A DNA stretch of 64,000 nucleotides from Phormidium tanganyikae FI6-MK23 (GTDB lineage: Bacteria > Cyanobacteriota > Cyanobacteriia > Leptolyngbyales > Leptolyngbyaceae), in NCBI GenBank assembly GCA_019359175.1, contig JAHHHU010000010.1:62001-126000 (forward strand), in the 5' to 3' direction. The notes below the pieces were generated by a model. The model searched no databases and was not told the origin of the DNA. It saw only the letters and a program-made list of their open reading frames with translations. The position numbers were made by a program, and so were the translations under genes. Below, piece after piece: positions 8,106-16,586 of the stretch; the stretch's first letter is position 1; each line of letters starts with the position of its first letter.

Positions 8106-8716
8106 CGCCCTGCATTGAGAATTTGAGCAGCAGTTAGGTTTAATCCAGGAAAAGTGCGGGAAGAGATACGCGCTGCTTCGCAGATACCGCAAGGGTCGTC
8201 ATTTTTAAACTGTCCGATTTCGCTATACTGTTCCCCTTCTAGATACAGCACGACCACAACTTCGCGAACAGGATCAATTAACCAATATTCGGGAATATTG
8301 CGTGATGCGTATTCTCTACGCTTCTCGACATAATCTCGATCGTAGTTCTTGCTTCCCGGTTCACCCGGCGAAACGACTTCCACAATTAGCGCCGGAGCTG
8401 GCATATTCAAGGTGATTAAAGATTGAGACTCCTGACTTAACGCATGATCTAGTTCTTCAGTCAGGATCATTAAGTCAGGATTTCGCGCCGTGACTATTCT
8501 GCTCCGAACGGCAATCTGTGTTCCTCTGGCAATAAGGTCGATCGACATTACTTGCAAAAACTGACTTAAAAGCCAAATTGCAATCTTTTCATTTAGTCGC
8601 TTCTCCGAACCCATATCTACCAATACCCCATCGACCAGTTCGTAACGGGTATCAGTTCCATCGTCGTAATTCAGATATTCCTCAATTGTTCTAAATCTCG
8701 GTTTGGCTTGGGTCAT
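8102..8716 (-). CDS. Uma2-family (DUF820) restriction-endonuclease-fold protein
   Basis: The 204-residue PD-(D/E)xK-fold protein shows the DUF820 layout. It begins with a TIEEYL-type N-terminus, then PDLMILTEE (acidic residue), [20 protein letters not shown] (E-x-V), [18 protein letters not shown] (lysine helix and strand), and ends [16 protein letters not shown]. Uma2 proteins are greatly expanded in cyanobacteria and their function is unknown. Near the C-terminus an eight-residue insert, PCGICEAA, interrupts the usual DDRI-S-x-TFPGL stretch; it is encoded by the 24-base repeat at 8171-8194. The protein therefore seems to tolerate an insertion in a surface loop. Confidence 0.85.
8171..8194 (-). 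repeat. 24-base mini-insert, copy 1 (inside Uma2 gene)
   Basis: On the minus strand the unit runs from CCTTGCGGTATC to TGCGAAGCAGCG. It sits after a GAC codon and before a CG-starting codon, and adds the eight codons PCGICEAA in frame. A second copy at 16036-16059 differs at one base and has the same CG and GTCG flanks on its two sides, so 29 of 30 bases match. Dispersed repeats of 20-30 bases are known in filamentous cyanobacteria; whether this belongs to a described class is not known to me. Confidence 0.75.
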
Positions 8717-8721
8717 AAGCG

Positions 8722-8988
8722 TTAAGGCCCTGCGAATACAGCATCCTCGATATCTTGGCGACTGAGCGAATACTTAAACGATCGCTGAATATCCCGCCCA
8801 TCGACATTTAAGTAGCGCACGCTGAGTTGATCAACATCGAGCATCAGTTCCGCTTGCCATTTTGAACGATCAATCGTCCAGCAGTGCAAATCCTCTGGAT
8901 CTTGTTCACAGCCTTGCTCAGATAGCCAGGCTTCGATCGCAGGCAGCGCATGGCTATAAAGCGGCGTATCACCGGAAGGTAGAGTCAT
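8722..8988 (-). CDS. DUF3143 family protein
   Basis: The 88-residue protein starts MTLPSGDTPLYSHALPAIEA and contains HCWTIDRSKWQAELMLDVDQ and LSVRYLNVDG, the pattern of the cyanobacterial DUF3143 family (also conserved in plastid-bearing lineages). Function is unknown. The start codon overlaps the stop of the upstream J-domain gene by 4 bases (8985-8988), so the two are probably translationally coupled. Confidence 0.85.
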   Translation of the reverse strand: MTLPSGDTPLYSHALPAIEAWLSEQGCEQDPEDLHCWTIDRSKWQAELMLDVDQLSVRYLNVDGRDIQRSFKYSLSRQDIEDAVFAGP

Positions 8989-9551
8989 AAAGAGTTATCT
9001 GTTTCAGTAGATTCTATTGTCGCTCGATCTGGAGAAAGCGTGGCAGCATTTTGGGTCGATTCCATCTGCTGAGGATGTTGGGCAGTGAGCGGTTGAAACG
9101 CCTGATCGCCACGAGTAATCCCGATCGTAATTGCCAAAATCAAACAGCCGACAAACGTAATTCCCAAAATAAACAGCGCAAACACTTCTCCAGGGGACAG
9201 CGGGCGATCGGTCGCATCCAGATAAGCGGAAGAATTCGGTTCTGGTTTATCCGTTTTATGCAAACTCGGTAAAGGGCGAACGACCACTATGCGGGAATAC
9301 CCGATCGACAAATCGTAAGCTGAACGACGTTCAGGATTACTTAAGGTCGCGTAAGCTTCGTTTAAGTGCTGAAACTTTCGAGTTGCGATCGCTTGTGGAA
9401 GTTCGGTTGTATCAGGATGATATAGCTTACTCAGTTCTCGATATGCCTGCCGAATGTCACGCACCGAAGTCGAAGGATGCAACCCCAAAAGACCGTAGTA
9501 GGTTGCTTCGATCGATGATTTGCCGCTTGAACCTAGTTTCTCCTCTGCCAC
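8985..9551 (-). CDS. Membrane-anchored J-domain (DnaJ-like) protein
   Basis: The 188-residue protein has a J domain at about residues 15-80: YYGLLGLHPSTSVRDIRQAY, the HPD motif within KLYHPDTTE, and FQHLNEAYATLSNPERRSAYD. The HPD triad is intact, so it can in principle stimulate an Hsp70 ATPase. One transmembrane helix (FALFILGITFVGCLILAITI) lies near residues 128-150 and a polar tail follows, so it is tail-anchored, with the J domain most likely cytosolic. It lacks the zinc-finger and C-terminal substrate domains of DnaJ. It is the first gene of a coupled pair with the DUF3143 gene. Confidence 0.88.
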   Translation of the reverse strand: MAEEKLGSSGKSSIEATYYGLLGLHPSTSVRDIRQAYRELSKLYHPDTTELPQAIATRKFQHLNEAYATLSNPERRSAYDLSIGYSRIVVVRPLPSLHKTDKPEPNSSAYLDATDRPLSPGEVFALFILGITFVGCLILAITIGITRGDQAFQPLTAQHPQQMESTQNAATLSPDRATIESTETDNSL

Positions 9552-9741
9552 TGGCTTATTCCTGAACGTTAAGCATTAGCAACTATTATTGTCGCCAGAA
9601 GCGGAAGTCTGCAAGTAGAATCACTCCCGCGCTCTGAAAACTCCATCATTAAACCTTAACCAAACCCCAACCTAGAAATTACCTGTCCTTGGTATTAGAG
9701 GCTTACAGTGAGAAGCGGGATTTCAGGATGGAGCAAAATCC

Positions 9742-10380
9742 ATGATCCAATCGTTCGCAGCATCATTGATTGAGCTACCCGATTCGCGGCAGCTACTAGA
9801 GCAGCTTTATCGGGAGCGCACCCTTCAGCCGTTTCGCAGCGGTCAAATTATTCCTTTACGTCCTGATGAACTTTGGATCGTATGTCGAGGCGTGGTGGTT
9901 CTGAATACGTTACACCCTACAGGCGATGAGGCTTTACTGGGCGTGGCAACTCCTTCGATGCCGTTTGGGTTGCCCTTGACGTGGATTTCACCGTATCAAG
10001 CGATCGCATTAACCGATGTCGATTTGCTGCCCTTGACGCTGGGGGAAGTTGAACGCTCACCCGCTCTCTGTCAAGGACTGTTTCGCCACCTCAGCCGTCG
10101 ATTACAGCAAGCGGAGGCATTTCTAGCGCTTTCAGGTTGTCGTCGAGTGGAAGAACGGCTGAAGCAGTTGTTGATTCTGCTTCAGCACGAAGTCGGGCAG
10201 CCCGCCCAACGGGGTACACGAATTAATGTACGTCTGACACATCAGCAGTTAGCTAATGCGATCGGAACCACGCGCGTCACGGTCACACGATTGATCGGAC
10301 AGCTAAAACAAGAGGATTGGTTAGCGATCGATGCCAAACGTCACATTATTCTTCACTCGCAGCCTCTTAATAACCTGTGA
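9742..10380 (+). CDS. Crp/Fnr-family transcriptional regulator
   Basis: The 212-residue protein has an N-terminal double-psi-like sensor half and a C-terminal winged helix with LTHQQLANAIGTTRVTVTRL. The recognition helix TRVTVTR matches the one known for NtcA, the cyanobacterial nitrogen regulator. The sensor half lacks the GE...R(T/S)A phosphate-binding cassette of cAMP-binding proteins, so it probably does not bind cyclic nucleotides. The start is an ATG after GGATGGAGCAAAATCC. It overlaps the convergent rlpA gene by 14 bases. It is not NtcA itself: the sensor half differs. Target genes are unknown. Confidence 0.85.
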   Translation: MIQSFAASLIELPDSRQLLEQLYRERTLQPFRSGQIIPLRPDELWIVCRGVVVLNTLHPTGDEALLGVATPSMPFGLPLTWISPYQAIALTDVDLLPLTLGEVERSPALCQGLFRHLSRRLQQAEAFLALSGCRRVEERLKQLLILLQHEVGQPAQRGTRINVRLTHQQLANAIGTTRVTVTRLIGQLKQEDWLAIDAKRHIILHSQPLNNL

Positions 10381-11521
10381 CTAATCGAGCTACCTGTTGC
10401 GGAGGCTTCTTGGCTTGAGCAATCACAACGGATTGCATCACGATCGCTTCGATCGGGACAACACCGCGTTCTTCACTGTTGATGATGCTGGCGGCACGTT
10501 TGGATAAGTCGAGGACGCGGTTATCGAAGTAAGGGCCTCGATCGTTAACGCGGACGACGATGCTCTTACCGTTGAGCCGATTGGTGACTTGGAGAAATGT
10601 GCCAAGCGGCAACGTGGGATGAGCAGCGGTGAGTTCGTTCTGGTCGAAGACTTCACCGTTTGCAGTTTGGCGACCGTGGAAGTAGGGGCCGTACCACGAT
10701 GCCATACCGTCGATGCTGCTGCCCGTTTTTGCCAATTGATACATTTCAGTTTGAGCTGCCGCGAGTGGGATGCTCGTTTGTCCAAGTGCGATGCGGAGAT
10801 TGTTCACCCATTCGATCGCAAGCAGTTCCGCTGGACGACCGAGCCGAGCTGCTGAACTATCACTGACCGTAAAAACGGTACGATCGCCTAATTTCGCTGC
10901 GGGTTGTTTGTGGTCGATCGCGGCTTTGAGCGTTGAAGCATCAAGATTTGGGGTTTCGAGCAGTTGATTAATCTGTTGGGCAAGCAGTTGTGCCGAACTG
11001 CGATCGCGAACTGTGGCAATTTGGCAACCTTTTACCCAGACCTGAAAGCCACCGGATGCGGAATTCGAGGCGGTTGGGCATTGCCAAAATCCGAATCTCG
11101 GCAAGAATGCTTCGGCGTGACTGAGCAGCGTGCCATCGTATCCGACTTCCACGATCGCGACAGATGAGTTGGTTTCCTTCGAGGCGGCAACGATCGGGAG
11201 TTGATCAAACAAAGACTGCATCGAGCCGAGAAATTCGCTCAGGGAATGCTTATCTTCGCTGGGAACTGGAGACATGAGCAATTGTTCGATCGTGCTAATC
11301 CAATTTGGATGGAGAGCGCGATCGTTGGAATCGACGCGAGGAGTATTCTGAGTCGTTGCGCTCGTCAGTTGAAGCGAGGATGAGCGCGGCGGCGTGGATT
11401 GACACACACCGCTATGACACAGAACATGAGTGAGATATTTGGGCGTGTCTAGCAGCTTGTTTCCCACGTTGGGAATACCACTAAACCACGAAGCGACCCA
11501 CATAAGTCCGAGTATCAACAT
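10367..11521 (-). CDS. RlpA-like septal ring lytic transglycosylase family protein
   Basis: The C-terminal double-psi beta-barrel reads GMASWYGPYFHGRQTANGE, LTAAHPTLPLGTF, and VVRVNDRGPYFDNRVLDLS, which is the RlpA signature. The long N-terminal half is cyanobacteria-type and poorly conserved. I choose the ATG at 11521, which gives 384 residues starting with a hydrophobic export-like segment (MLILGLMWVASWFSG); the frame is also open from a GTG at 11593. Enterobacterial and Pseudomonas RlpA act on denuded peptidoglycan strands at the septum; the enzymatic activity here is inferred. Confidence 0.85.
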   Translation of the reverse strand: MLILGLMWVASWFSGIPNVGNKLLDTPKYLTHVLCHSGVCQSTPPRSSSLQLTSATTQNTPRVDSNDRALHPNWISTIEQLLMSPVPSEDKHSLSEFLGSMQSLFDQLPIVAASKETNSSVAIVEVGYDGTLLSHAEAFLPRFGFWQCPTASNSASGGFQVWVKGCQIATVRDRSSAQLLAQQINQLLETPNLDASTLKAAIDHKQPAAKLGDRTVFTVSDSSAARLGRPAELLAIEWVNNLRIALGQTSIPLAAAQTEMYQLAKTGSSIDGMASWYGPYFHGRQTANGEVFDQNELTAAHPTLPLGTFLQVTNRLNGKSIVVRVNDRGPYFDNRVLDLSKRAASIINSEERGVVPIEAIVMQSVVIAQAKKPPQQVARLVTGY

Positions 11522-11685
11522 TTTTGGTTTGACTTCAAAATTGTAAACAGCAATACACTTTTGCCGAAGCTTATTATAAAGTTCTCCTGTCACGAAATAG
11601 ATTATCCGGAGGAGGTAAATCTTCTTAACTTTGAGAAGTCGCTGACTAATTTATGTACCTTTTGGCACACTTCAAGGATTAACTT

Positions 11686-12573
11686 ATGACGTTACCGTTT
11701 TACATTGTGGATGTGTTCGCTGAACGCAAGCTTGCTGGAAATCAGCTTGCAGTATTTCGTCAAGCGAATCAGCTTACAACTGAGGAGATGCAAGCGATCG
11801 CGAAAGAAATAAACTACTCGGAAACGACGTTTATTCTGTCTGAATCTCCGCAAAACGAAGGCTATCCTGTCCGAATTTTTACGCCTGATCAAGAGCTTCC
11901 ATTTGCGGGACATCCGACCCTAGGAACTGCGTTCATTTTGCAACAGGCAGTGATCCAAGATTCAGTATCTATCGTGAGATTAAACCTTCAAGTGGGGCAG
12001 ATTCCGGTGACGATCGAATATATCGATCGAGCGATTGACGTGCTATGGATGCGCCAAAACGCACCGCATTTCGGGCGGCAGTTTGAAAGTAGCGCGATCG
12101 CAGCCGTCTTAGGTTTGAGTTCGGATCAAATTGACGATCGCACTCCGATCGAGGAAGTTTCGACAGGTTTACCGTTCATCATTGTGCCGCTAAAGAATTT
12201 AGCCGCCCTTCAACAAGCAAAAGTCGATCGGGAAGCGCTCTTTAGACTGATTGAAACAACCGAAGCAAAGGCAATTTTGATCTTTTGTCCTGAAACACGC
12301 AGTTTAGACAATCAGTTAAGCGTGCGCGTTTTTGTAGAAGCATTGACCGGATCGCCAGAAGATCCAGCAACCGGAAGCGCGAATGGATGCTTGGCGGCAT
12401 ATTTAGTTGAGCATTCCTACTTTGGTCGAATGTCAATTGACATTCGGGTTGAGCAAGGCTACGAAATTGGGCGACCTTCCTTGCTCTTGCTGCGGGCAGA
12501 AAAACAAGACGAAGCCTTTGAGATTTCAGTTGGCGGCAAAGTCATCCTAGTTGCGAAAGGTGAGTTTGTTTGA
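11686..12573 (+). CDS. PhzF-family isomerase/epimerase-like protein
   Basis: The 295-residue protein starts FYIVDVFAERKLAGNQLAVF, continues with EINYSETTFIL (catalytic Glu region of PhzF) and PFAGHPTLGTAF, and has the second-domain motif DPATGSANGCLAAYL. This is the diaminopimelate-epimerase fold with two similar halves. PhzF itself isomerises a phenazine precursor, but no phenazine genes are nearby and most homologues have unknown substrates. A good ribosome-binding site (AAGGA) sits 8 bases before the ATG. Confidence 0.88.
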   Translation: MTLPFYIVDVFAERKLAGNQLAVFRQANQLTTEEMQAIAKEINYSETTFILSESPQNEGYPVRIFTPDQELPFAGHPTLGTAFILQQAVIQDSVSIVRLNLQVGQIPVTIEYIDRAIDVLWMRQNAPHFGRQFESSAIAAVLGLSSDQIDDRTPIEEVSTGLPFIIVPLKNLAALQQAKVDREALFRLIETTEAKAILIFCPETRSLDNQLSVRVFVEALTGSPEDPATGSANGCLAAYLVEHSYFGRMSIDIRVEQGYEIGRPSLLLLRAEKQDEAFEISVGGKVILVAKGEFV

Positions 12574-12636
12574 AATACGATTGTTCTACAACTGAATCGA
12601 GACAATAATAAAAATATCGAATTCTAGTGGCTGTTT

Positions 12637-13413
12637 ATGACTCAGCAATTTCTGGAACAAGAGTTTGAAGATGCGATCGTTCAAGAACTGGATATCAGTC
12701 ATCTTGTGATTGAGGATGATACGCCCGTGGATAACTTTCAATCTGCCCAACAGCAACGCTTATTAGTCGAGTCGCTTTATAGCGCCAAAGCCGTTCCACT
12801 GCCATTTATCGCAGATGCAAATGTGGGATTGTTTTACAACTTATATGGTGATCCGATTGTTCCAGATGTTTTTCTGAGTTTAGGAGTCCAGCGCAAAGAC
12901 TTTGCAGAACGCCGAAATCGATCGTACTTTGTTTGGGAATTCGGGAAAGTGCCGGAAGTCTGTATTGAAATTGTTTCTAATGCAGAAGGGGATGAATTAG
13001 CTCTAAGCCGAAAATCGCAGCAGAAAGGAAAAGAAGTTTGTAAAAAAGATATTTATGCTCAGATTGGTGTTCCTTACTATGTTGTGTTTGATCCGCTTCA
13101 ACGAATTCAAACTGATATGGGTGGGGCACTGTTACGAGTGTGGATGTTGACAGCAGGACGTTACGAAGAACTCACTCCGATCGAGGGAATTGCTGAGGCG
13201 GGTCAATCCGTTTGGTTAGAAACAATCGGTTTAGGACTAACGTTATGGCAAGGATATTTTGAAGAAGAGGTATCAAGGTTGTGGTTACGGTGGTGCGATC
13301 GTTCTGGGCGCGTGATCTCAACCGGAGCCGAAGGACAAGAGATTGAGCGACAGCGAGCAGAGCGATTAGCCGAAAGACTCCGAGCAATGGGCGTTGATCC
13401 GGATGAAGTGTAA
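12637..13413 (+). CDS. Uma2-family (DUF820) protein
   Basis: The 258-residue protein shows PDVFLSLGVQ (acidic residue), PEVCIEIVSN (E-x-V), a KKDIYAQIGVPYYVVFDP helix-strand, and a charged C-terminal tail with RQRAERLAERLRAMGVDPDEV. That tail is shared with the broken copies at 15.5 and 16.6 kb and is typical of the longer Uma2 subgroup. It is a putative PD-(D/E)xK nuclease of unknown function. Its end overlaps the start of the M28 peptidase gene by 11 bases, suggesting co-transcription. Confidence 0.83.
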   Translation: MTQQFLEQEFEDAIVQELDISHLVIEDDTPVDNFQSAQQQRLLVESLYSAKAVPLPFIADANVGLFYNLYGDPIVPDVFLSLGVQRKDFAERRNRSYFVWEFGKVPEVCIEIVSNAEGDELALSRKSQQKGKEVCKKDIYAQIGVPYYVVFDPLQRIQTDMGGALLRVWMLTAGRYEELTPIEGIAEAGQSVWLETIGLGLTLWQGYFEEEVSRLWLRWCDRSGRVISTGAEGQEIERQRAERLAERLRAMGVDPDEV

Positions 13414-14254
13414 TGAACTAACGGCACGATTACGATCGCACATTGAAGCGGTGGCACGCGATCGCGATCCGTATTTTGCGACTCAAGGACACTTCTATGT
13501 GCAGCAATACATTCGCGAACAGTTTGCACAGTGGGGAACGGTCGAATCTCATGCGTTTCAAGTCGGAAAGCGATCGCACTACAACTGGATTCTGAATTTA
13601 CCCGGTCGGGAGAATGCAAAGCCTCCGATTCTAATTGGCGCACATTATGATGCTGTGCCAAACTCTCCCGGTGCGGATGATAATGCAACCGGAGTCGCTG
13701 TGTTGTTAGAGATGGCAAAGGCTTTTCGTGAACAATCAGCACGCTATCCGATTCGATTAATTGCTTTTGATTTAGAAGAAATTTTCACACAGTCGAATAC
13801 GTTTGGAAACACTCAATACGCAATTTCGCTGAATAGTGAACCGCTACGATTGATGATAGCTTTGGAAATGCTCGGATACTGCAATCATGAACGAAATTCG
13901 CAACGCTATCCCGCAGGATTAGAGCGGTTTTATCCTGACCAGGGTAACTTTATTGCGTTAATTGGAAATATTCCAACGATTCCAGATTTGATTCGATTGA
14001 GTCGGGGAATTCGTCGCTCGAACATTGGATGTGAATGGCTTCCAGCAGGAATGCGCGGCAACATTGTGCCTGATACTCGTAGAGGCGATCATGCTGCCTT
14101 TTGGGATCGGGGGTATCGTGCATTGATGGTGACAGATACCGCGAATCTGAGGAATCCGAACTATCACAAGCCGAGCGATCGCATTGAAACGATCGATTTC
14201 GATTTTCTTACGCGGGTGTGTCAAGGTTTGATCGACTCGATTCGATCGCTGTAG
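13403..14254 (+). CDS. M28-family zinc peptidase
   Basis: The protein has the M28 metal-site order: HYDAVPNSPGADDNATG (H and bridging D), FDLEE (catalytic Glu pair), LEMLGY (metal Glu), and NPNYHKPSD (late His). M28 enzymes are aminopeptidases or glutaminyl-cyclase-like. No clear signal peptide is seen with the ATG at 13403, so a cytosolic location is likely. The frame is open from a TTG at 13394. It is followed 41 bases later by a second protease gene, the caspase-like protein. Confidence 0.88.
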   Translation: MKCNELTARLRSHIEAVARDRDPYFATQGHFYVQQYIREQFAQWGTVESHAFQVGKRSHYNWILNLPGRENAKPPILIGAHYDAVPNSPGADDNATGVAVLLEMAKAFREQSARYPIRLIAFDLEEIFTQSNTFGNTQYAISLNSEPLRLMIALEMLGYCNHERNSQRYPAGLERFYPDQGNFIALIGNIPTIPDLIRLSRGIRRSNIGCEWLPAGMRGNIVPDTRRGDHAAFWDRGYRALMVTDTANLRNPNYHKPSDRIETIDFDFLTRVCQGLIDSIRSL

Positions 14255-14295
14255 TCTGGGTATACTTTCTATCAATCACAGTCGCAATCATCACT

Positions 14296-15522
14296 ATGAT
14301 GCAACGATTTATCCCGGTTTTTTTAGCAACGATTACAGGCATCACTTTCACTGATTCACAAGCAATTAGTCAAAGCAATTCATCTTCTAAAACCTGTCAG
14401 AGATCGACTGCACAAAACTTTCTCGTATTCGGGGGCGGTGGTGCGCCTTCTTACAATGAGATTGCGCTTGAAAAGAATATGCTGTACTTTCAGCGATCGC
14501 TCAAACAGCTAGGATTTTCTGCAAGCGATGCTCCGATCTACTTTGCGAACGGAACCACAGGTGAAAAAACAGTTCGATACCTAGACGAAAAAGGCGATGA
14601 ACAATTCAAAGCGCCGAATGTTCCAAATGTGCAAGGAGCTTCTAACATTCCGAACTTACAAAACTGGATGGCTCAAGCCGCAAAAGAGAAAACCACAACG
14701 CCACTGTTTTTCTACTTTTCAGGACATGGGGGACACAATCACATCAATGAAGATAACTCATCAATGTGGATGTGGCGCGATCGAGAATTGAGCGTTCAGA
14801 ACTTTACTACAATGCTCGATCGTTTACCGCAGAACAAACCGTTTGTAACGATGATGTCTCAGTGTTACTCTGGCTCATTTGCAAACTTAATCTACAACGG
14901 TGGCGATCCAAACAAAGGTGTAGCATTGCGAACTCGCTGCGGATTCTTTGCCACGATTAAATCTCAGCCTTCGGTCGGTTGTACAGCCGAAGTGAATGAA
15001 GCGGACTACCGCGACTATAGTTCGAGCTTCTTTGCAGGTTTAACGGGACGCGATCGCATCGGTCGAAAAGTGGCTTCGGCGGACTACAACAAAGACGGAC
15101 GCATTTCTTATGCTGAAGCTCACGCCTACGCCAAAATTGATAAATTCACCACTGATCTACCTGTTTCAACTTCCGAAGTTTGGCTTCAGCGACAGGTGAG
15201 CAATCCAACAATGCAAGAACAGATTCTAGGACAGCCGATCGCGCCTTTAGCTAAGATTGCCCGACCTGAACAGCGATTCGTGATCGAATCATTGAGCCGT
15301 CAGTTTAAGTTTGATCCGACTCGATCGTTTAGCGGTAATCTGCGATCGATGAATTCCGATTTGATTAAAACGGCTGAAGATGAAGCGTATCTAGTTCGGC
15401 TATCAATGGAGTTGACGAATGTTGCAGTGGAACGACGAGTGAAAAGCTCTAAAAACACTCAGGCGATTCAAACGCTCGATCGATTAGTGCGCTGTGAAGC
15501 TGGATCGTGGGGCAAGCCGTAA
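14296..15522 (+). CDS. Secreted caspase/legumain-like cysteine protease with EF-hand loop
   Basis: From the ATG at 14296 the protein is 408 residues. A signal peptide precedes a clan-CD-like core. The dyad candidates are H144 in FYFSGHGGHN and C190 in MSQCYSGSF, with the spacing and flanking SGHG and QCxSG motifs expected for caspase-type or C13-type enzymes. Residues 263-274 form a textbook EF-hand loop: D263, N265, D267, G268, I270, S271, E274 (DYNKDGRISYAE). The frame is open from 14218, but that start would add 26 residues before the signal peptide. Substrate and exact family are unknown. It is probably co-transcribed with the M28 gene. Confidence 0.72.
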   Translation: MMQRFIPVFLATITGITFTDSQAISQSNSSSKTCQRSTAQNFLVFGGGGAPSYNEIALEKNMLYFQRSLKQLGFSASDAPIYFANGTTGEKTVRYLDEKGDEQFKAPNVPNVQGASNIPNLQNWMAQAAKEKTTTPLFFYFSGHGGHNHINEDNSSMWMWRDRELSVQNFTTMLDRLPQNKPFVTMMSQCYSGSFANLIYNGGDPNKGVALRTRCGFFATIKSQPSVGCTAEVNEADYRDYSSSFFAGLTGRDRIGRKVASADYNKDGRISYAEAHAYAKIDKFTTDLPVSTSEVWLQRQVSNPTMQEQILGQPIAPLAKIARPEQRFVIESLSRQFKFDPTRSFSGNLRSMNSDLIKTAEDEAYLVRLSMELTNVAVERRVKSSKNTQAIQTLDRLVRCEAGSWGKP

Positions 15523-15523
15523 C

Positions 15524-16200
15524 TTAGAGATTTGGATCAATGCCGAGCGATCGCAATTGTTCGGCAAGTCGTTCTGCTCTTTGCTGTGCCAATAGCACCG
15601 ATTCTTCAGGCGTTGGAACAAGCTCACCATTCGGTTGAAAGTATCTCAATTGATTGTTCTGAACTCCCAGAAACAACTCTAGCGACTCACTCCAAAGCTG
15701 ATTTTCAGCAGTTGGCTCGATCGCTTGATACTGTTCTCCCACTAATCGAAATCCAGCAAATTCAAGATCGCTCGGTGAGAACCAGAAGTATTCAGTTGTG
15801 CGGAAACGATTTTGGTAAAGGTCTTTTTTCAAGCCTTTATCTGTGTTCTTTGTTTCATCCGAAAGCAGTTCGATGCTCACATCTGGATAGCGTCCGTCTT
15901 CTTCCCACACGACCCACGTGGATATTTCTGCGTTTGTTTGACTAGAAAGAAATCCGGCCCTCGAAAATCTCGATTTTTTAACTATTGGCGACTGAAGTAA
16001 ATCGTCAGATTTGCACCGATGAAGAAATCTTCTCGCGCTGCTCCGCAGATACCGCAAGGGTCGCGCCACCACCACTCTAAGCAACTCACTAATAATGCGA
16101 GTTGAGCATAGTGCAAAGAGGTTTCCATTTCCGGCTCGTTGCTATTGAGCTGTGTCGCATCGGGCATCAAAGCTTCGAGTTCTTTTGCCGTCAGGTGCAT
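15524..16200 (-). pseudogene. Uma2-family gene broken by nonsense and frameshift
   Basis: From ATG 16200 the frame reads MHLTAKELEALMPDATQL, then CLEWWWRD, an eight-residue insert PCGICGAA (the 24-base repeat), and REDFFIGANLTIYFSRQ. It then meets TAG at 15984-15982, where homologues carry Gln. Reading on through the stop gives LKNRDFRGPDFFLV, after which the frame must shift near 15945 to continue STWVVWEEDGRYPDVSIELL, YFWFSP and the tail RAERLAEQLRSLGIDPNL. All parts of a Uma2 protein are present, so this is a recently inactivated gene. The two lesions are separate from the in-frame insert. Confidence 0.82.
16036..16059 (-). repeat. 24-base mini-insert, copy 2 (inside broken Uma2 gene)
   Basis: The minus strand runs from CCTTGCGGTATC to TGCGGAGCAGCG, 23 of 24 bases identical to 8171-8194 and with matching flanks. 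It encodes PCGICGAA between WWWRD and RED, where Uma2 homologues read WWWRDRED without interruption. Confidence 0.75.
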
Positions 16201-16265
16201 GGGTTTGCTTCCAGATCGAGGTTTCTTTAGCGTACCATTGGCGATCAAAACTCGTCGCTTTAGAT

Positions 16266-16586
16266 ATGAACAACATCTTTCGACTACCAGAATTCTTGCT
16301 CGATCGAGAACTCTTTGAACCATTGATCGAAACTGATCAGCTCCTCATCGAACGGATTATTTCAACAGGACAAACAACACCTGAAGGCGAATGGTATGAT
16401 CAACCGCGCGATGAATGGGTGTTGCTGTTGCAGGGTGAAGCGCAATTAACGTATGAGGATGGAAGTACGATCGAGCTTAAATCGGGCAACTATCTCTTGA
16501 TTCCGGCACATCAAAAACATCGCGTGAGCTATACCAGTTCTGATCCGGTTTGTATTTGGTTAGCCGTTCATGCTGGGTTGAAGTGA
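16266..16586 (+). CDS. Cupin-domain protein
   Basis: The 106-residue protein starts MNNIFRLPEFLLDRELFEPL and contains the small beta-barrel of a cupin: DEWVLLLQGEAQLTYEDG (first cupin motif with E and G) and LKSGNYLLIPAHQKHRV (second motif with the metal His pair). Function is unknown; such single-domain cupins are often metal-binding enzymes or sensors. The open frame starts earlier at 16152, but that stretch is antisense to the broken Uma2 gene. It lies between two Uma2 remnants. Confidence 0.8.
   Translation: MNNIFRLPEFLLDRELFEPLIETDQLLIERIISTGQTTPEGEWYDQPRDEWVLLLQGEAQLTYEDGSTIELKSGNYLLIPAHQKHRVSYTSSDPVCIWLAVHAGLK

Follow-up and report, generated by a model that had tools for sequence, protein, structure and literature searches.

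A 24-nt repeat in two Uma2 genes

The window analyzed here is a 64,000-nt stretch of the Phormidium tanganyikae FI6-MK23 genome (G000:C6:62001-126000; the host genome, G000, is a 5.74-Mb draft of 77 contigs). It contains two copies of a 24-nt element, CGCTGCTTCGCAGATACCGCAAGG, each in frame within a gene of the Uma2 family, one gene intact and the other apparently broken (Table 1). Copy 1 has the exact consensus sequence, and copy 2 differs from it by a single T to C change. At up to three mismatches the window has these two matches and no others, compared with a mean of 0.00 in 100 dinucleotide shuffles. A preliminary description of this DNA had reported both copies, their one mismatch and their common flanks, CG and GTCG; we confirm all of these, coordinates included.

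In the intact open reading frame (ORF) the element adds the octapeptide PCGICEAA. Copy 2 adds PCGICGAA to a 113-aa ORF that gave no Pfam family match when searched alone, but it can reasonably be taken for the N-terminal part of a Uma2 gene that has been broken, because the C-terminal part of Uma2 lies in an ORF that overlaps it in another frame. The earlier account of an in-frame PCGIC(E/G)AA in one intact and one broken carrier therefore stands. An Rfam search with 271 bases around copy 1 returned nothing at an E value of 1. The Uma2 family is hugely expanded in the host genome (93 matches in 5.74 Mb), with several members fragmentary or carrying stops. Adjoining the broken gene is a 434-aa ORF (14218-15522, +) with an SGHGG motif, which we take to be caspase-like.

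Copy number and distribution

The host genome has 10 copies of the 24-mer at up to three mismatches, and a reversed-pattern control found none. At the same threshold, 24 of 58 genomes in the set of relatives carry the element, and a closer pattern (up to two mismatches) finds it in 46 of 388 genomes across the class, the host genome being counted in both. Thus the search of genome and relatives that the preliminary description had proposed turned up many further copies. We also built a 32-position covariance model of the element with its flanks (R1). Counted at an E value of 0.1, R1 matches number 13 in the host genome, 35 in G014, 56 in G250 and 113 in G191, the richest genome, where the pattern at up to two mismatches finds 77.

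A scan of named genomes with a 23-base pattern (two free bases) returned 70 stretches, most of them in Leptolyngbya-type records: 40 were titled Leptolyngbyaceae or Leptolyngbya, 11 came from unclassified FACHB strains, 7 from Myxacorys, 3 from Phormidesmis, 2 each from Phormidium and Nostoc, and 5 from others including Gloeocapsa and Chroococcidiopsidaceae. Plasmids of Leptolyngbya boryana and Leptolyngbya sp. NIES-3755 also contain the 24-mer.

Two local arrangements stand out. One contig of G014 (C117; L065, L110) holds ten copies (up to three mismatches) in 7 kb, several of them within repeated CT-rich cassettes. In several genera, one and the same position of a short-chain dehydrogenase-like gene is occupied by the element (L036, L070, L071, L083, L090, L100, L113, L123, L137), and FACHB-471 (L083, L090) has one more copy at a distance of 186 bases. 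The copies at this shared position may go back to a common ancestor, to gene transfer or to repeated insertion.

The element interrupts HIP1 or a HIP1-like octamer

From the collected loci we assembled 121 distinct copies (up to four mismatches; copies less than 20 bases from a locus end were left out). Their conserved block is (G)CG-24 nt-GTCG(C), with nothing conserved beyond it over the whole set. To define the site before insertion, we joined the flanks of the 10 host-genome copies and searched them against 42 family genomes, the host genome included, scoring up to seven candidates per genome. Forty matches, orthologs and some paralogs, were chosen for comparison. In 34 of these the stretch lacks exactly 24 nt, and the sites of both window copies are empty in three relatives. 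The remaining six comprise three stretches with a net difference of 23 nt (all for L032), one occupied site (L183), and L199 and L209. In L199 (G005) the site corresponding to the host-genome copy L033 is empty, and the matching gene has its own copy close by in the opposite orientation; this independent nearby copy indicates repeated insertion. L209 (G003:C1:5921900-5922200) is a paralogous dehydrogenase site in which the HIP1 position that the 24-mer occupies in L036 holds another insert, about 22 nt long.

The empty sites are the octamer known as highly iterated palindrome 1 (HIP1), GCGATCGC, or resemble it. Fourteen of the 34 match HIP1 exactly and seven have one mismatch, so that 21 lie within one mismatch and 13 have two or more. 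Counted by locus, 9 of the 10 host-genome copies had a comparable stretch; for five of the nine at least one stretch has an exact HIP1 (L031, L034, L036, L038, L039), and for eight of the nine there is one within a single mismatch, L032, with its net 23 nt, among these. HIP1 occurs 4858 times in the host genome, compared with 49 occurrences of a reversed control.

The insertion point is between nucleotides 3 and 4 of the octamer. Position 4 is A in 28 of the 34 empty sites (21 of 27 when the stretches for L039 are set aside) and G in 117 of the 121 occupied copies; the copy at L039 retains the A and reads ATCGC. No target duplication was seen in the compared occupied and empty stretches. The target is thus HIP1 or a near relative, the net change is a gain of 24 nt, and the A is usually replaced by G. 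The preliminary description had proposed a preference for a GAC-CG site, which turns out to be the junction after insertion.

Coding context

The 32-nt consensus has no stop codon in any of the six frames, and with a length that is a multiple of three, the element can pass through genes. Of the 121 copies, 70% lie within ORFs of at least 100 aa and 52 within open frames of at least 150 aa. All six frames are used, and the element is accordingly read as one of six different octapeptides. In-frame insertion is found in the Uma2 ORFs and in a histidine kinase ORF (L040) and, by reading of the translations, in protein kinases (L112, L128), a 3HCDH-like protein (L139) and short-chain dehydrogenases. 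In L112 and L128 the insert falls between HRDIKPSN and DFG, which we take to be the protein kinase motifs of those names.

Among 78 distinct element-bearing ORFs of at least 100 aa (85 references, 7 duplicates dropped), 8 match Uma2 and 5 adh_short; in the host genome, 3 of the 10 copies are in Uma2 genes or remnants. The enrichment of Uma2 (8/78) has P ~1e-6 at a genome share of 1%, itself a rough figure from the 93 host-genome matches, and ~2e-4 at 2%, with kinship among genomes ignored in both cases. HIP1 density does not explain it, since HIP1 is sparser in Uma2 domains than in the genome overall: 0.53/kb in 30 of the 93 domains versus 0.91/kb in 1.26 Mb of the host genome. The likelier cause is tolerance of insertion by Uma2 genes. 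One of the 78 ORFs (L133:975-2129, -) matches apocytochrome f and is the only listed ORF of at least 150 aa with a CxxCH motif; its element is near the N-terminus, perhaps in or before the signal peptide.

Predicted structure and length variants

Two hairpins are predicted in the 24-mer, one with a GCAA loop, and 93.5% of helix cells are paired in the main family. Compensatory change is weak within that family, and the helices are preserved in rarer variants. In G191, variants have CTC-TTC-GAG as helix 1 and ACCC-GCAA-GGG(G) as helix 2, so that a base pair fewer in the first is balanced by one more in the second, and GCG and GTCGC remain 24 nt apart (L333 has CTG for GCG). Other forms of helix 1, CGC-TTT-GCG (L046) and GGC-TTT-GCC (L320), also keep 24 nt. 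In L414, CAGC-TTC-GCTG (CAGC/GCTG replacing CTGC/GCAG) is combined with ATCCC-AAA-GGGAT, and L415 has ATCCC-TGC-GGGAT; each has 24 nt before ATCGC or ATCGA. Together with L039, for which empty sites were seen, L414 and L415 make three variants followed by ATCG, all of 24 nt. For these variants the 24 nt is the spacing between the HIP1 halves. A loose pattern found 155 right halves; in 94 of them GCG lies exactly 24 nt upstream, variants of G191, G022 and G028 whose helix 1 is shorter being among these, and the other 61 include chance matches. That variants with shifted helices keep 24 nt suggests that length itself is under selection.

Other inserts at HIP1

A second repeat, GTTCCTNCGGAGTTGCGCNNNGCGCTA, is 27 nt long and occurs in 21 of the 42 family genomes, the host genome included. 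At up to three mismatches there are 9 copies in the host genome, none of them within the window, 60 in G025 and 109 in G009. Across 59 distinct copies (up to four mismatches) the repeat is flanked in the consensus by GCG and ATCGC, i.e., HIP1, with position counts of G 43, C 56 and G 58 on the left and A 57, T 42, C 54, G 55 and C 48 on the right; the hairpin loops vary. Judging from these flanks of occupied copies, the 27-nt repeat appears to sit in HIP1 with the octamer kept. A subfamily in which TGC/GCA replaces TCC/GGA was examined at eight places (L419-L424, L428, L429), of which seven continue with AACG(C/T) and one with ATCGC.

The 27-nt repeat is the one lead from a first scan for two-hairpin inserts that proved real. 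That scan had raised the idea that HIP1 hosts many unrelated inserts of this type, which we rejected with more sequence and controls: the tally at GCG-X-ATCGC was 5 of 2962 candidates in the host genome and 0 of 750 in G191, and altered anchors in the host genome give, for example, 4 of 1691, 2 of 1055 and 2 of 569. In 300 kb of Nostoc plasmid, one 21-mer occurs three times as GCG-21 nt-ATCGC, and this may be SDR5, a small dispersed repeat (SDR) of Nostoc.

Table 1. The 24-nt element, its carrier ORFs and related repeats (window coordinates, or loci in other genomes)
Feature	Position or loci	Strand	Remarks
Copy 1 of the 24-nt element	8171..8194	+	Exact consensus; site empty in G002, G003, G006
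Copy 1 with interrupted HIP1-like halves ACG / GTCGT	8168..8199	+	32-nt covariance model match
Intact Uma2 ORF, 204 aa, copy 1 in frame, adds PCGICEAA	8102..8716	-	Pfam Uma2 E 2.2e-24
Copy 2 of the 24-nt element	16036..16059	+	One mismatch; site empty in G002, G003, G006
Copy 2 with interrupted HIP1-like halves TCG / GTCGC	16033..16064	+	32-nt covariance model match
113-aa ORF, copy 2 in frame (PCGICGAA), read as N-terminal piece of broken Uma2-like gene	15982..16323	-	
ORF overlapping 15982..16323 in another frame, C-terminal Uma2 part of the same broken gene	15524..16084	-	Pfam Uma2 E 9e-12
Relatives of the 24-mer with a different helix 1 and mostly a longer helix 2	L331, L332, L333, L340, L344, L348 (G191); L046 (G028); L057 (G022)		24 nt before GTCGC
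27-nt repeat, example loci	L113, L129, L374-L413		

Evidence for mobility

The 24-mer is probably a mobile repeat of the same kind as SDR5, very small and dispersed. Copies in many genomes, together with empty sites that lack exactly 24 nt, support mobility, and with it the preliminary description's proposal of a tiny mobile element whose insertion leaves the reading frame unshifted.

Several observations weigh against this reading. The 13 empty sites with two or more HIP1 mismatches fit the proposed target poorly, and some of their alignments are weak, with 54-59 of 80 positions identical for L201, L202 and L206. In L178 (G002), G occupies position 4 even in the empty site; for L032, the difference from each of three relatives is 23 nt instead of 24; and L037 had no comparable stretch among the matches listed. 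Precise excision would give the same empty sites, though the pattern of one carrier against several empty relatives favours gain. Mobility is here deduced from the comparison of genomes. The openness of all six frames is unremarkable, as 21% of shuffled 24-mers are likewise stop-free. Long ORFs (at least 150 aa) hold only 43% of the 121 copies, compared with 65% of 564 HIP1 sites in the same 97 loci and 63% of 480 random points there; copies are thus depleted from long ORFs, and insertion is therefore tolerated in genes but neither neutral nor harmless. With regard to structure, covariation in the main family is weak (its score was reached by 2 of 500 shuffles, and two-sided pair change by 40 of 500) and weaker still for the second structure, and both hairpins are absent from the minimum-energy folds of the consensus on either strand.

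How the repeat may spread

The element might spread non-autonomously via a short folded single-stranded DNA or an RNA-derived copy. Its ends carry the two halves of HIP1 (GCG, TCGC), which would offer microhomology to any of thousands of HIP1 sites. The donor's end base, G, would then replace the HIP1 A at position 4, and the two predicted hairpins could protect or present the single-strand intermediate. Such a route would explain the site, the absence of target duplication and the base change; taken by itself, we consider it less likely than not. The process would be one of short-patch illegitimate recombination, on which a literature search gave nothing to the point by the titles listed. A wider proposal, somewhat more doubtful, takes in all three repeats as length-locked two-hairpin inserts in HIP1 of Leptolyngbya-type cyanobacteria (24 nt, 27 nt with HIP1 kept and 21 nt in Nostoc). 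These would spread by microhomology of HIP1 halves without an encoded or resident transposase, and selection on the coding frame would keep their length divisible by three, even in variants where one helix has lost a base pair and the other has gained one.

Alternatively, a resident reverse transcriptase may turn a structured RNA into DNA and insert it at HIP1, a route we regard as rather unlikely. Elhai et al. reportedly proposed RNA intermediates in 2008. The predicted hairpins, the GCAA loop and the helix-preserving variants would suit such an intermediate, and RVT_1 is present in 12 of 15 genomes tested. However, the host genome and G025, with 10 and 12 copies at up to three mismatches, have no RVT_1 match, and the single match in G191 is below the Pfam cut-off, whereas RVT_1 is present in five genomes that have no copy at that threshold (G013, G016, G018, G021, G024).

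Ordinary recombination or transfer of longer homologous segments could also disperse a short sequence, and it may have contributed to the two local sets described above, the dehydrogenase gene occupied at one position across several genera and the G014 copies with shared cassette flanks. For the dispersed copies it is contradicted, as the 121 copies taken as a whole have no conservation outside the 32-nt unit, and as a general explanation it is improbable.

We give slightly less credence still to a repetitive extragenic palindrome (REP) or REPIN, or an IS200-like single-strand element, moved by a transposase of the Y1 (RAYT) type. The 24-mer is small, hairpin-forming and present in many copies; Y1_Tnp is found in 13 of the 15 genomes tested, including 8 of the 9 carriers among them, the host genome included; and a passage in PMC3116915 reports REPINs in Nostoc punctiforme. 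Yet no Y1_Tnp match turned up at an E value of 0.001 in G191, which has 113 model matches and whose assembly, in 30 contigs, is estimated to be 100% complete, while five genomes without the 24-mer (up to three mismatches) have at least one (G013, G017, G018, G021, G024). A GTAG or CGTC tag is absent from both strands of the 32-nt consensus, as read by eye, and the high share of copies within ORFs is unlike extragenic REPs. Neither Y1_Tnp nor RVT_1 tracks the repeat in the 15 genomes, and past activity or another enzyme family is possible.

Finally, despite the three host-genome copies in Uma2 genes or remnants, it is next to impossible that the insert is a segment inherited from ancestral Uma2 proteins or a piece of a duplicated gene, and the ancestral segment is refuted, because the 24 nt are missing from both window sites in the orthologous stretches of G002, G003 and G006 and copies lie in unrelated ORFs in all six frames.

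Significance

The 24-mer is a HIP1-associated very small repeat of Leptolyngbya-type genomes, with empty sites, a high-copy genome and cases inside real proteins. Few DNA elements that look mobile are as small, and the kind to which it belongs was originally reported from Nostoc. Many filamentous cyanobacteria carry it, often within genes whose reading frame stays intact. It makes two questions testable: what purpose HIP1 serves, and by what means so short a piece of DNA, about two dozen bases, can move. Carriage without a Y1 transposase match, as in G191, narrows the mechanism.

Comparison with known systems

Elhai et al., in Genome Res in 2008, reportedly described eight SDR families in Nostoc, 21-27 nt long and with a common secondary structure said to be supported by compensatory change. 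Five strings from the 24-mer and the 27-mer gave no full-text literature match in a search whose scope did not extend to the founding SDR paper.

Several better-known systems resemble the 24-mer in part. REPs and REPINs with their RAYTs are likewise dispersed, hairpin-forming and about 20-30 nt long, but the 24-mer lacks the GTAG/CGTC tags by which a passage in PMC3733652 defines REPs, lies mostly inside ORFs and has no Y1_Tnp match in its richest genome. Miniature inverted-repeat transposable elements (MITEs), such as Nezha of cyanobacteria, are also non-autonomous and dispersed, but the 24-mer is far shorter than the 70-300 bp that the same source gives for MITEs and lacks a target-site duplication in the compared stretches. 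Rickettsia palindromic elements, described in a passage of PMC10969869 as lying in frame within protein-coding genes, share that habit with the 24-mer; they are about 150 bp long, in contrast to 24 nt, and the 24-mer is tied to HIP1 and encodes six octapeptides rather than one family-specific peptide.

The closest likeness is to SDR5, which according to a passage in PMC4390886 is inserted between nucleotides 3 and 4 of HIP1. We provisionally file the 24-mer as a further repeat of this kind. The 21-mer of the Nostoc plasmid, which may be SDR5, has no obvious sequence likeness to the 24-mer and is 21 rather than 24 nt long. The 24-mer further differs from SDR5 in usually turning the HIP1 A to G and in its occurrence mostly in Leptolyngbya-type records. 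It is alike in being very small, in having the same insertion point within HIP1 and in a length that falls within the range reported for the SDR families.

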